A DNA stretch of 44,625 bases, taken from positions 1 through 44,625 of IMG/VR virus record IMGVR_UViG_3300010371_000049. One strand, 5' to 3'. Shown here piece after piece: positions 17,711 through 22,486 of this stretch. A program made the position numbers and the translations under genes. The stretch's first letter is position 1; each line of letters begins with the position of its first letter. The DNA is from a virus. The notes under the pieces are model-generated. The model did no database searches, was not told the origin of the DNA, and saw nothing but the letters and a program-made list of their open reading frames with translations.

Positions 17711-20455
17711 TTAGTTGCGATAGTAACTGGATTGTGATGATTGTTGATGGGTAGAATCGTTTTGTCTTGAACGTAACCCAACTCCAATAGTATTGTTAGT
17801 AACATTTTGATTTGTAGTTTGTTGAACTACCGTATTACCAGATGGTTGAGAAATTTGGTTCCTTTTCAATGCAGAGTTTTCATCCAATTTACTCAATAAA
17901 TTTTTAGCTTGCAAATTTTGTTGAGATTGTTCAAGAGAGTATAATGCTATTTGAGATTCCTTGGCAAATCGGGTTCTCTCATTGCTAGATTGGCGATATA
18001 ATGATATTGCATGATTAAAGTTTCCCATTCTAAATGCAGCATATGCTTCACGTTCTTTTGATCCACCATAAAGATTACCAAGGGAATTATAAAATGATTG
18101 GATTAATTGAGCATCAGAGATGCCATTTAAATTCCCACCAAATTGATTTTTAATAGTTTCCACAATTTGGTTTGCATTTTTTCTTCCAGAAATAGCTAGT
18201 TCAAATACCGCGTCCTTTAATTGTTGTGATCGGTTTGTTAAATCCAAACCTTTTTGCTTTAAATCTTCCACAACTGGTTCATAAATTTTATCCTCTGCAA
18301 AAGCTTGTTGGAGATATATCATCCTTCGATTATTCGATAGACTTCTCCAAGCTGATTTAAAAGTCTCAGTCCCTTGTCTAGCACCATTCTTACCACCAGC
18401 GGCAATTAACTTATCATCAATCATTTTAGTTTCTGGATCGATATCCGAAAGAGAATGGATATAATCTAAAAATTTATCCATTGTTCCTTGTTTTGTTGAA
18501 AACTGATACAAACCATATGAATAACCACCTAAATCATCACCACCAGAATTAACTAATGAATCATTAATTGTTCCGGCATTACCATTTGCTTCATTCAATC
18601 TTGCCATCATTCCTAATTCCGGTAATGTATAATTTGTAGAATTGGCTAAAGATGCACCAGTAGATAATAGAGCACCGGAACCCATCATTGGTTTTGTTCT
18701 CAAAATATCCAATCTTCTTTTTTGTTCTACTTCTCTTTGTTGTTCGGATAAAACAGGTGTTGCTTTTATCACTCCAGCCATTTGTGATGGATCAAATTGA
18801 CCACTAAAAAGATCCTTCCAATTACCATGAATTAGATCAGTAAATCCTCTCTTTAGATTTTCCCAAGGATGTAATAAATTATTTGCTGCTACTGCTCCAT
18901 TATTAATTACTGATGATTCTAAACCTTTACGGGATGATTTACCATAACCCATTTTTTCATTGATAGTATCAGCATCTTTGAATATCTTATAACTAGCAAC
19001 CGCTCCGGTACCTAATGCTAAACTAGCCAATCCACCAAGACCAAATAAAGCACTACCAAAAAACTTACCGGCGGCCCCGGCGATTCCACCAGATATGACT
19101 TTTTGAGTAACTCCTTCTGCAACACCAGTTTCTACAGCATGTGTTAAACCAGATGATGATTCTTGGGATTTTTTTGGTACCAAACTGTTAACACCTGAAC
19201 CTGATCCTAATAAACCAGCTACCATTACAGGGGGTTTCGATTTTCTTATTAATCCTTCTTCTTGATTCTCCTCATTAATTCCTTCTGAAAGTTCATCCCT
19301 TTTGGTTAACTTATCAGATATTTTTTTTAAAGAACCATCCATCGAATGTAACAATTTTACTTGGTCTTCAAATAAATCTACAACATGTTCAGGTTTTAAT
19401 TTTGGATTATCTCGTTGAATTGGATTGTTGTAAGAATTATTTGAACCTACTGGGATAATACTTCTATTACTAATTGGTGGTCTTTGTACTGGAATCGGTT
19501 CGGATCTTTGGACCCCGGTAGATTTTGGTTTCTTTAAAAATTTCTTTACTAATTCATCTTCAGCACCTAAATCCTTTAAAGTGCCAGCAGCATGATATTT
19601 TAATTCTGGTGATTTATTTGGATTTTTCAAAACATCATATAAAACATTATTCAGATTTTTTCCAGAATTTGCATCAATAATACTAGCCAATTCTTCTACG
19701 GGAGAAACTTTTAGCCCATCATTTAATAATCCTTCTTGAATAATATTTTCAGGAGGTACATTTATTGTTTGACCAATAGGCGCTTCAATTATTGGATTTT
19801 TAGGTGTATTTTGATCAACAATTTTAATAGGTTGTTTTTTTGATATGGTTTTTACAGGTTGTTTTGGTTGATTGATTTTTGGATTTTTAGGAATTTTTGG
19901 GACTTGTGTGATTACTGCGGTATTTGATTTTGATTGAGTACTAAGATTTTTTAATAATTCCTGATGACGGATTCTTTTTCTTTCATTTTCTGATTTTTGT
20001 TTATCTAAATATGTACCAAAAGCAACTGCTAATGGTGAATCACCTGTAAGTGCACCTAAAATAGCACTAACTCTTACCGGGTGATTTTTTACATAATTAC
20101 TGATAGAATTTGTTTGATTTGAAATATTATTCTTTAATTGATTGGTAGTTTGATAAACTGCATCAAATTCACTCATTACCAAATCTAATTGTTTTGGGTA
20201 ATCCTTCAATAAAATGGAAACTGCGGCTCGTATTTCATCCAATTTATTATCTACGGATTTAATTGTACCATAACTAATTTTTTCAGGATCGATAGAATTC
20301 CTTAAGAAATCTAAAGATTTTCTTACATTTTTAACAATTTGATTAACTTGTTGATTTGAATTTAATGGACTTTTTCGTAAATCTTGGAGATACTGATCCA
20401 ATTTAATTAAATACGTATCTCCAGTTTCAGATTGGTTTAACGGTAAACTAGCCAT
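17711..20455 (-). CDS. Large tail/baseplate protein with muralytic-like domain
   Basis: This 914-residue protein is modular. Residues 1-200 are helical coiled-coil-like. Residues 200-430 are Pro/Lys/Asn-rich linkers with PKNP repeats. About 455-500 is a Gly/Ala hydrophobic stretch (GGIAGAAGKFFGSALFGLGG) that could insert in a membrane. About 610-800 holds LNEANGNAGTIND, GGYSYGLYQFSTKQGTMDKF and NRRMIYLQQAFAEDKIYEP, a layout I associate with phage peptidoglycan hydrolases (SYGxYQxS motif, upstream Glu). The end is Gln/Asn-rich. It probably opens the cell wall during DNA entry. An AT-rich late-like motif lies just upstream. Confidence 0.65.
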   Translation of the reverse strand: MASLPLNQSETGDTYLIKLDQYLQDLRKSPLNSNQQVNQIVKNVRKSLDFLRNSIDPEKISYGTIKSVDNKLDEIRAAVSILLKDYPKQLDLVMSEFDAVYQTTNQLKNNISNQTNSISNYVKNHPVRVSAILGALTGDSPLAVAFGTYLDKQKSENERKRIRHQELLKNLSTQSKSNTAVITQVPKIPKNPKINQPKQPVKTISKKQPIKIVDQNTPKNPIIEAPIGQTINVPPENIIQEGLLNDGLKVSPVEELASIIDANSGKNLNNVLYDVLKNPNKSPELKYHAAGTLKDLGAEDELVKKFLKKPKSTGVQRSEPIPVQRPPISNRSIIPVGSNNSYNNPIQRDNPKLKPEHVVDLFEDQVKLLHSMDGSLKKISDKLTKRDELSEGINEENQEEGLIRKSKPPVMVAGLLGSGSGVNSLVPKKSQESSSGLTHAVETGVAEGVTQKVISGGIAGAAGKFFGSALFGLGGLASLALGTGAVASYKIFKDADTINEKMGYGKSSRKGLESSVINNGAVAANNLLHPWENLKRGFTDLIHGNWKDLFSGQFDPSQMAGVIKATPVLSEQQREVEQKRRLDILRTKPMMGSGALLSTGASLANSTNYTLPELGMMARLNEANGNAGTINDSLVNSGGDDLGGYSYGLYQFSTKQGTMDKFLDYIHSLSDIDPETKMIDDKLIAAGGKNGARQGTETFKSAWRSLSNNRRMIYLQQAFAEDKIYEPVVEDLKQKGLDLTNRSQQLKDAVFELAISGRKNANQIVETIKNQFGGNLNGISDAQLIQSFYNSLGNLYGGSKEREAYAAFRMGNFNHAISLYRQSSNERTRFAKESQIALYSLEQSQQNLQAKNLLSKLDENSALKRNQISQPSGNTVVQQTTNQNVTNNTIGVGLRSRQNDSTHQQSSQSSYYRN

Positions 20456-20462
20456 TTATCAC

Positions 20463-20473
20463 TATTTATTTCT
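20463..20473 (-). promoter_or_regulatory. Late-promoter-like motif
   Basis: Minus-strand AGAAATAAATA eight bases before the ATG of the 914-aa gene. It is similar to CTAAATAAATA before other structural genes. It is weak on its own because the region is AT-rich. Confidence 0.3.
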
Positions 20474-20669
20474 GGACAATATCTTTTTGTGAAATATGAA
20501 ATATAGCTAAACCACCAATCGTTGCAAATTTTGCAATTGATATAATAATTGGCCAATGTTCGAAATATTTTGGTTCAAATAAGACAAATGATAAAACAGT
20601 GGAAACAACCACACCAACAGTGGAAGATTTCCAACTTTTAAATATCCTGGTAATTAATTCATCTTTCAT
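20466..20669 (-). CDS. Small two-pass membrane protein, holin-like
   Basis: This 67-residue protein has a basic N-terminus (MKDELITRIFKSWKSS), a first hydrophobic helix (VGVVVSTVLSFVLF), a short loop EPKYFEHWP and a second helix (IIISIAKFATIGGLAIF), ending HISQKDIVQK. Size and topology match class II holins or phage membrane proteins of the KFxxxGGLA type. The ATG overlaps the stop of the frameshift extension (ATGA at 20666-20669), and the ribosome site AAGGAG lies 10 bases upstream. The lysozyme gene is 6 kb away, so holin is only a candidate. Confidence 0.6.
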   Translation of the reverse strand: MKDELITRIFKSWKSSTVGVVVSTVLSFVLFEPKYFEHWPIIISIAKFATIGGLAIFHISQKDIVQK

Positions 20670-20836
20670 TGTTTATTATTCTCCTTTTCAAGTTGCTGTA
20701 CTAATAAAGTAGTTAAAATTTCTCTATCCGAAGGAACCATATCATGTAACTCAGTCCAACTCATTTTGTGGTGGTACCAAAGAGCAAAATTACGGACGTA
20801 AAATTGCGTTAAATTGGTATGGCTGAGCCCTATCCG
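20666..20836 (-). CDS. -1 frameshift extension of the gp26-like protein (gp51/chaperone-like)
   Basis: Read in the -1 frame after the slippery TTTTTTC, 56 codons stay open from CGG at 20836 to the TGA at 20666-20668. The product starts RIGLSHTNLTQFYVRNFALW, passes a YHHKMSWTELHDM segment and ends SDREILTTLLVQQLEKENNK. The pattern W/Y-x-HHK-x-S-x-x-E-L-x-x-M-x-P-x-x-R-(E/D)-I is what I remember from small proteins encoded right after gp26 in T4-like cyanophages. An internal ATG (20764) has no ribosome site, which favours expression by frameshifting. Confidence 0.65.
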   Translation of the reverse strand, partial: RIGLSHTNLTQFYVRNFALWYHHKMSWTELHDMVPSDREILTTLLVQQLEKENNKQ

Positions 20837-21576
20837 AAAAAATCCGCGATTCCTTGTAATTTAATTTTGGATTTATGTCCGCATTTGGTACAATGAAACG
20901 GTGCTTCAAATTTATAATCTGGAATAGTATCAAAAAATGTCCGAATTTTTCCAAATGCTGGTTGTGATAAACCTTCTAAAAATTGTGTTAATTCTTCATC
21001 TGTAAATTTATCTCTGGTATAAATTTTTTCTTCTTCAAATATCGTAGAAACACAATCTTTAATAATTTCAAAGGTAGATTGAATATTACCATCTGTTTTC
21101 ATTTGGGCTATTTTATCAGCTACTTCAAATCTTGGATATCGCATTTCAATACCAATCAAAGGATTTTCTTGTAACCGAATAATATTATGTTTATCTGGCG
21201 GAATTTCTATTTTTAAATCCTTTTCCAGATCAATTTTATATTTAATCACATATCCACACAAACCATCTTCGTTTTCAGGATTTGGTTTAGGACATTTAAA
21301 TGATATTTCTACCACATCAGAAATAGATTTGCAACGGATTTGAATAAAAAGATATTCCAAATCTCGTAATGGTAAATTTTTAATGTCAATTTTATTTACC
21401 AAACATAAGGAAATAATTTGGTGGATTGCTCTAATAAAATCTGGTACTTCATTTGACTGTAAAGCAATTAAAAAAACTTTTTCCGCACCGGCTGTAAATG
21501 GACGAAAGACTACCTTCTTTTTGGAAAGTGGTAAAATGGTTTCAAATTCAGGAAGAATTATTCTAGGTAATTGCAA
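20830..21576 (-). CDS. 26: Baseplate hub / tail-assembly protein, gp26-like (zero frame)
   Basis: This 248-residue protein opens MQLPRIILPEFETILPLSKK and VVFRPFTAGAEKVFLIALQS. It ends in a zinc-ribbon half (HCTKCGHKSKIKLQGIADFFG) after an earlier SFKCPKPNPENEDGLCGY Cys pair. This order (LPxxxVxYRPFxxxEEKxLLxA, PCxxC, QxFF ending) is that of gp26 in T4-like cyanophages. The final IADFF is encoded over the T6C slippery sequence; a -1 shift yields a fusion of about 303 residues. gp26 helps build the central hub that nucleates the tape-measure complex. Confidence 0.75.
   Translation of the reverse strand: MQLPRIILPEFETILPLSKKKVVFRPFTAGAEKVFLIALQSNEVPDFIRAIHQIISLCLVNKIDIKNLPLRDLEYLFIQIRCKSISDVVEISFKCPKPNPENEDGLCGYVIKYKIDLEKDLKIEIPPDKHNIIRLQENPLIGIEMRYPRFEVADKIAQMKTDGNIQSTFEIIKDCVSTIFEEEKIYTRDKFTDEELTQFLEGLSQPAFGKIRTFFDTIPDYKFEAPFHCTKCGHKSKIKLQGIADFFG
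20836..20842 (-). promoter_or_regulatory. Candidate programmed -1 ribosomal frameshift site
   Basis: The heptamer T TTT TTC lies in register with the zero frame (GAT TTT TTC GGA TAG), the canonical X XXY YYZ form. An AAGGA element ends 8 bases upstream, comparable with the stimulatory Shine-Dalgarno of dnaX, and the zero-frame stop is two codons downstream. The -1 frame is open for 56 codons after it. Confidence 0.65.
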
Positions 21577-21781: not shown

Positions 21782-22486
21782 CTATTTAATTGGCGTTAAG
21801 TTATAACTAATTGTAGAATTCACCTGAGTTTTTTGTTGTGGTTCGTTTTTTGAAAATTGTATCTTATCAATGGACAACATAGTATCACCATTTGAATCTG
21901 TAATACCATTGATACCTGCTACAATCCATCTTCGATATGAAAAACCAACTACCAGGCTATGTACTTGATTATTTGGTGAATAATCTAACTCTAAATTACC
22001 AACAAAATTTGGCCATGCATTTTGCAGAGTTATTTCGTAGATAATATTGTCCGATTCATCAAATTGGCTAATTCCAATATCGGTTGTATATTCAGAATAA
22101 TAATTATAATCCAAAGTTATGGCATCCTCAATTGCATAATGCCATGAATCAAAAAATAATTTTTCATCAAATTCACCAGTAATAAGAAATTGGACTCTTA
22201 CATCATCATAAATGGCTTCATATGGTTGTTTATAAGTTGGACCATAATGACGAATTTCAGTAGTTGCAAAAAACTTACTTGGAAATTCTGCTCGATGGGC
22301 TAATAATGAAATTCGTTTTTGAATATCTACACTATCTACCAAAAATTTCTTAAAATAACCACCATCTTGGAAAAATGAGTTATTTGTAATGATAACTGGT
22401 AATGCAGCTATATCTACTCTATATTTGTTTGGTCTTGCAAAACCACTAGCCGCAGATACAGATGCAATAAATTCTGTAATATCCAT
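21782..22486 (-). CDS. Tail-tube family protein (gp19/gp54-like)
   Basis: This 234-residue protein opens MDITEFIASVSAASGFARPNKYRVDI, the typical start of T4 gp19-family tube proteins (FxxxxxxGxxRPNxFxVxI). LLAHRAEFPSKFFATTEIRHYGPTYKQP follows, then a DVRVQFLITGEFDEKLFFDSWH region and a NAWPNFVGNLELDYSPNN strand pair shared by the tube and its baseplate initiator gp54. At 234 residues it lies between gp19 (163) and gp54 (320), so tube initiator or tube protein are both possible. The start overlaps nothing but directly follows the upstream gene's stop. Confidence 0.7.
   Translation of the reverse strand: MDITEFIASVSAASGFARPNKYRVDIAALPVIITNNSFFQDGGYFKKFLVDSVDIQKRISLLAHRAEFPSKFFATTEIRHYGPTYKQPYEAIYDDVRVQFLITGEFDEKLFFDSWHYAIEDAITLDYNYYSEYTTDIGISQFDESDNIIYEITLQNAWPNFVGNLELDYSPNNQVHSLVVGFSYRRWIVAGINGITDSNGDTMLSIDKIQFSKNEPQQKTQVNSTISYNLTPIK

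Follow-up and report, generated by a model that had tools for sequence, protein, structure and literature searches.

The gp26-type gene of this marine T4-like virus very probably yields two proteins through a programmed -1 frameshift at its 3' end, namely gp26 itself (TAC-N) and a longer gp26-gp51 fusion (TAC-NC), in what would be the T4-type counterpart of the G/GT pair of phage lambda. The window analyzed here is the whole 44,625-nucleotide stretch of IMG/VR record IMGVR_UViG_3300010371_000049. An earlier note on the same DNA had proposed the frameshift, and its reading is supported by the register of the slip site and its conservation among relatives, by selection on the coding content of the -1 frame, by stimulators detected in relatives, and by collinearity with gp51 of phages that carry two genes. 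Slippage in this particular phage, its efficiency and the chaperone role are inferred.

The slip site and the two reading frames

The zero-frame product belongs to the T4 gp26 family, matching PF12322 (2e-50; 171.9 bits against the Pfam cut-off of 24.5) and phrog_150 (2.3e-54), as the earlier note had assumed. The gp26 frame ends with GAT TTT TTC GGA TAG, where the TAG occupies positions 20832-20830 of the minus strand, and the canonical heptamer T TTT TTC lies in the correct register ahead of this stop (Table 1). The G+C content of the record is 31%, and T runs are therefore common; nevertheless, among the 146 in-frame X XXY YYZ heptamers found in 32 window genes, the one at the end of gp26 is the only case in which the -1 frame remains open for at least 20 codons beyond the gene stop, which excludes a chance association. 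A second in-frame TTTTTTA is located near position 21470 on the minus strand, at about codon 35 of gp26; there, the -1 frame stops after 8 codons, and this occurrence is probably due to chance.

After a -1 slip at the end of gp26, 56 codons stay open (58 when FF is counted) up to a TGA at 20668-20666, which shares bases with the start codon of the following gene (ATG, 20669-20667). On its own, this extension matches the gp51 family phrog_634, "baseplate hub assembly catalyst", at 3.9e-14, in line with its proposed identity as a gp51-like partner of gp26, and also weakly matches the final 50 positions of phrog_150. Neither ATG, GTG nor TTG is present before residue 27, and the ATG at residue 27 lacks a good Shine-Dalgarno (SD) sequence, so that the extension has no usable start codon, nor a ribosome site of its own, as the earlier note had stated. 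PF12322 is found in a single copy and phrog_634 gives a single match in the whole record, which might be a fragment.

Table 1. Features of the gp26 region, with positions in the window
Feature	Position	Strand	Remark
Tail tube-family gene, upstream of gp26	21782..22486	-	phrog_45 tail tube, 1e-39
gp26-type gene, short form (TAC-N)	20830..21576	-	TTG start as listed
AAGGA, SD-like element, 8 nt before the heptamer	20851..20855	-	anti-SD duplex -5.4 kcal/mol
Slippery heptamer T TTT TTC, zero-frame register	20836..20842	-	in-register TTTTTTN in 184/190 loci
Predicted -1 extension (FF + 56 codons + TGA), gp51-like C-terminus of TAC-NC, the long form	20666..20842	-	phrog_634; purifying selection in relatives
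Predicted downstream stem-loop, candidate stimulator	20748..20829	-	base 6 nt past the heptamer; single sequence
Next gene, 67 aa, small hydrophobic protein	20466..20669	-	weak phrog_29636 match, 1.5e-4
914-aa gene, tape-measure position	17711..20455	-	VgrG3-like muramidase domain, PF21277, 4.5e-21

Conservation across T4-like phages

We compared the nucleotide sequence of the junction across 190 loci, which comprised 80 loci from IMG/VR collected with the extension as the query, 80 collected with the body of the S-PM2 gp26, the window, and reference phages. The S-PM2 query excludes the slip site, so the second set serves as a control for the bias toward FF in the set found via the extension. 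A search of viral contigs with gp26 of the window recovered no relatives, in contrast to the search with the extension peptide; the KVP40-like and Rhizobium queries returned few loci, and a mixed gp26 alignment proved too diverse to be used as a query. An in-register TTTTTTN near the end of gp26, accompanied by a gp51-like extension in the -1 frame, is present in 184 of the 190 loci, with C as the last base in 138, A in 39, T in 5 and G in 2; because the loci share descent, these counts are not independent. The combination is found in Kyanoviridae, KVP40-type Straboviridae, Pootjesviridae, Emdodecavirus, Menderavirus, Cr30 and others, and the phages sampled include Caulobacter Cr30, Pelagibacter Mosig, Methylophilales Melnitz, Stenotrophomonas Bhz51, Vibrio ValKK3, Vibrio EniLVp02, Citrobacter Ci1, Rhizobium RHph_I46, Sinorhizobium phiM7 and Acinetobacter nACB2.

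After dereplication, all 78 loci show NNT TTT TTN at the slip site, whereas in the rest of gp26 from the same loci, Phe is encoded by TTT in 70% of the cases and the third base is T in 39%. Where FF must be specified in both frames, the needs of the two proteins account for part of the T6 run, a constraint that presupposes translation of both frames. Comparison of related pairs of extensions beyond the gp26 stop yielded differences in the ratio 3024:1759:6082 at positions 1, 2 and 3 of the -1-frame codons. Thus, the -1 frame behaves as a translated frame under purifying selection across the relatives. In the public records that we sampled, the gp51 region is either omitted or annotated as a short gene in its own right, in many cases with a start chosen arbitrarily, and none of these records contains a joined gp26-gp51 gene. 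Among the cyanophage records, L181, L182 and others leave the gp51 region unannotated or assign to it an arbitrary short open reading frame (ORF).

The six exceptions among the 190 loci include two Tevenvirinae (T2 and F2), three phages that are Ackermannviridae-like or similar to Vibrio K448, and one poor match. T2 and F2 encode a separate, full-length gp51 and a gp26 without the T6 run, which in T2 is replaced by TTC TTT. In the gp51 of T2, a PF12322 domain spans residues 1-201 and the phrog_634 extension comes after it; the alignment of this protein with the predicted products of frameshifting is collinear across the junction, where DVFKLL pairs with DFFRIG, and past it (FYQINHTLVKSNYSL in T2 gp51 against FYQTNFALVQHHKYSL in the predicted frameshift product). 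Thus, phages with two genes carry a dedicated gene for the product that phages with one gene would obtain by slippage. The Ackermannviridae-like and K448-like exceptions, together with three additional phages, retain the -1 ORF without the T6 run. In Ackermannviridae (L093:2205-2270, L187, L190 and L191), the sequence is ATT TTC ATT TAA, with GAG before it in the version found among the six exceptions; PH4 and Ds25CZ contain TAATG, and heyday has no start codon. In Vibrio K447 and K448 (L192 and L087), the sequence is CTT TTC AAG TAATG. In these T6-less phages, the second part must be made by a different slip or by a restart. Homologues that contain both parts with no slippery run and with a ribosome site preceding the second, which the earlier note had named as grounds for abandoning a frameshift, were encountered only in such side branches.

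Candidate stimulators of the shift

The AAGGA that the earlier note had likened to the enhancer of dnaX is located where the entire family displays its strongest pairing with the 16S anti-SD sequence. Across the family, the strongest pairing falls 8-14 nt before the heptamer, at a mean of -5.8 kcal/mol compared to the background of +0.5, and 55-65% of the loci reach -5 kcal/mol or lower in this interval, against 2.6%. The Glu codon within the SD-like element is GAG in 30 of 50 cases, compared to 24% elsewhere.

Downstream of the heptamer, folding of 45-nt windows across the family reveals a single sharp minimum that starts at a distance of 10 nt from the heptamer's initial T, with a mean z of -2.3 and 51% of the values below -2, against approximately -0.2 in the remainder of gp26 and of the extension. 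The hairpins vary from lineage to lineage. The stem of the TTTTTTA clade starts 5 nt past the heptamer, and one of its pairs appears as AU, CG, UA and GC; compensatory changes in this hairpin amount to 16 double-change cells, compared to 5.9 +/- 1.9 in shuffled alignments (0 of 500 as high) and to 2-7 in slid controls. Relatives of S-PM2 share a conserved 11-bp hairpin core that includes a C-G to U-A exchange. A consensus fold across all clades yielded nothing for the largest cluster because the stems differ among lineages, and smaller clades were used instead; an Rfam search at the junction produced no real match. In the window, a 94-nt fold of the predicted stem-loop has an energy of -22.5 kcal/mol and a z of -2.4, compared to -1.6 for a 68-nt window; given that this is one sequence and that the significance of the fold varies with the length used, the hairpin of the window itself is only suggestive. 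At the level of the family, both putative stimulators, the SD-like element and the downstream structure, are present, and in the window itself the SD-like element is clear.

Alternative routes to the second protein

The gp51 part could, in principle, be a separate protein produced by termination and reinitiation at the gp26 stop, the T6 run simply mirroring a conserved DFF peptide. Such a route has a possible starting point in Cr30, KVP40-like, Rhizobium and Menderavirus phages, where an ATG in the -1 frame overlaps the gp26 stop, but we consider it improbable as the general explanation. Indeed, 45 of the 78 dereplicated loci (the window and 44 other representatives) lack any ATG, GTG or TTG in codons 1-9 of the extension, and the conserved FFR block precedes any start. 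Furthermore, T2, in which gp51 is separate, keeps a similar peptide, KEFF, but encodes it with TTC TTT, and the SD and hairpin signals lie at the distances typical of frameshifting. The slippery heptamer and an overlapping -1-frame ATG do occur together in several lineages (L083, L086, L088, L090, L091 and L184), so that both a fusion and a free extension made by restart are possible there, and some lineages may use slippage and restart alike.

The T run at the junction could also cause RNA polymerase to slip, generating a mixed mRNA pool in which the long form would come from edited transcripts. Six T residues are, however, a short run for efficient transcriptional slippage, and this scenario would require neither the precise codon register nor the SD element ahead of the run nor the compensated hairpin; we regard it as less probable still. 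A sequencing error or a decayed gene, with both frames once forming a single ORF, is a negligible prospect given that the two-frame layout is shared by 184 of the 190 records.

Proposed mechanism of the -1 frameshift

Under the favored -1 frameshift, ribosomes translating gp26 would pause at T TTT TTC, aided by the upstream AAGGA and the downstream hairpin. A fraction of them would slip back by one base as tRNA-Phe shifts its pairing from TTT TTC to TTT TTT, and would read on in the gp51-like frame, whereas the majority would terminate at the TAG one codon past the slip site, releasing gp26 as the short chaperone. The remainder would yield the gp26-gp51 fusion of about 303 aa. By analogy with the G/GT pair of lambda, coating of the tape measure protein would fall to the short form, and the long form would recruit parts of the tail tube or the hub through its C-terminal extension.

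Predicted fold and neighboring genes

The AlphaFold2 model of gp26 (pLDDT 91.8) resembles, in its predicted fold, the tail assembly chaperone of HK97: residues 1-94 align with 2ob9 at a Z of 7.5 over 84 residues and with 3fgx at a Z of 8.2, compared to 2.6 for the next entry and at most 2.6 for unrelated ones. Foldseek alone gave a weak match (E 1.6), and a search of solved structures with the gp26 sequence returned chance matches only. The simplest reading is that gp26 and gp26-gp51 correspond to TAC-N and TAC-NC as in lambda G/GT, with the chaperone role assigned by analogy. The earlier note had described a "gp26-like hub protein"; the family assignment stands, and tail assembly chaperone appears to be a better label than hub.

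The gene order is that of a tail tube-family gene, gp26, and then a 914-aa gene that is tape-measure-like by position and composition only. Its position after the chaperone and its glycine/alanine-rich hydrophobic stretch suggest that this gene encodes the tape measure. The muramidase domain is located at the C-terminus of the 914-aa protein, which has almost no relatives in the phage collection. The 67-aa protein contains hydrophobic segments and is encoded between the chaperone and the tape-measure position, its start sharing an ATGA overlap with the stop of the extension.

Implications and relation to known systems

If the frameshift operates as proposed, the short gp51 frame of marine T4-like phages would be explained as the C-terminal part of a frameshift protein rather than a separate gene, and T4-type tails would come under the lambda rule, in which a fixed ratio of two chaperones is set by slippage. 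The comparison also hints at the route by which T4 became dependent on a gene 51 of its own. Should efficiency matter as it does in lambda, tail assembly in very abundant ocean viruses would depend on the slipping of ribosomes in cyanobacteria and other hosts. We tentatively put forward, as a possibility held with much less confidence than the frameshift itself, that the combination of an SD-like element, T6N and a lineage-specific hairpin is the widespread and ancestral route to gp51 in the T4 superfamily that has not been described as such, T4 gene 51 being a derived duplication.

Tail assembly chaperones of T4-like phages have reportedly been assigned by Vladimirov, Gautam and Davidson 2022 (Virology 566:9). 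The PRFect paper (PMC10885494) cites Vladimirov et al. 2022 for some T4-like phages in which a short gene is accompanied by a longer fusion gene encoded separately, and the paper on phage Adele (PMC12846349) credits the same study with poly-T slippery sequences in T4-like TAC-N genes. Judging from these citations, the concept of a frameshifted T4-like chaperone is probably already known. A literature search, the reach of which did not extend to Vladimirov et al. 2022, yielded no paper on a gp26/gp51 frameshift for cyanophages. The T4-type equivalent of G/GT that the earlier note had called notable has thus probably been discussed already, and the wide conservation, the stimulators and the contrast with gene duplication amount to confirmation and to detail that may be partly new.

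The analogy with lambda-type G/GT is upheld by the predicted chaperone fold, the layout of the extension and the conservation of the slip site. Lambda-type G/GT and P2 E/E' both combine a short chaperone gene located ahead of the tape measure with a -1 slip near its 3' end and a C-terminal extension on a minor long form, an arrangement that the window, with its putative tape measure gene, would share. The slip site of P2 E/E' is T TTT TTG. The family of the window differs from the lambda-type chaperones in that it is T4 gp26 (PF12322), which is larger and lacks a sequence match to solved chaperones, the likeness to HK97 gp13 being at the level of the predicted fold. With E. coli dnaX, gp26 has in common the SD-like element, the heptamer and the putative downstream hairpin. 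In dnaX, the SD-like element lies about 10 nt upstream, the heptamer is A AAA AAG, and the shift shortens the product, whereas in gp26 it would lengthen it. The tail assembly chaperones of Vandenendeviridae and Andersonviridae (phage Adele, PMC12846349) also employ a -1 frameshift at poly-T, and there, too, the next ORF has been misannotated as a separate gene; these systems differ in using a GTTTTT motif and in belonging to other virus families. A further parallel is T4 itself, where both gp26 and gp51 are catalogued as chaperones of hub assembly; T4 gp51 is reported to be absent from the particle (PMC3004832). The same two parts are found in both systems, a gp26 domain and a gp26 domain with the extension, but T4-type phages encode them in two full genes, whereas the record of the window virus contains one gene with a predicted slip and no separate full-length gp51.
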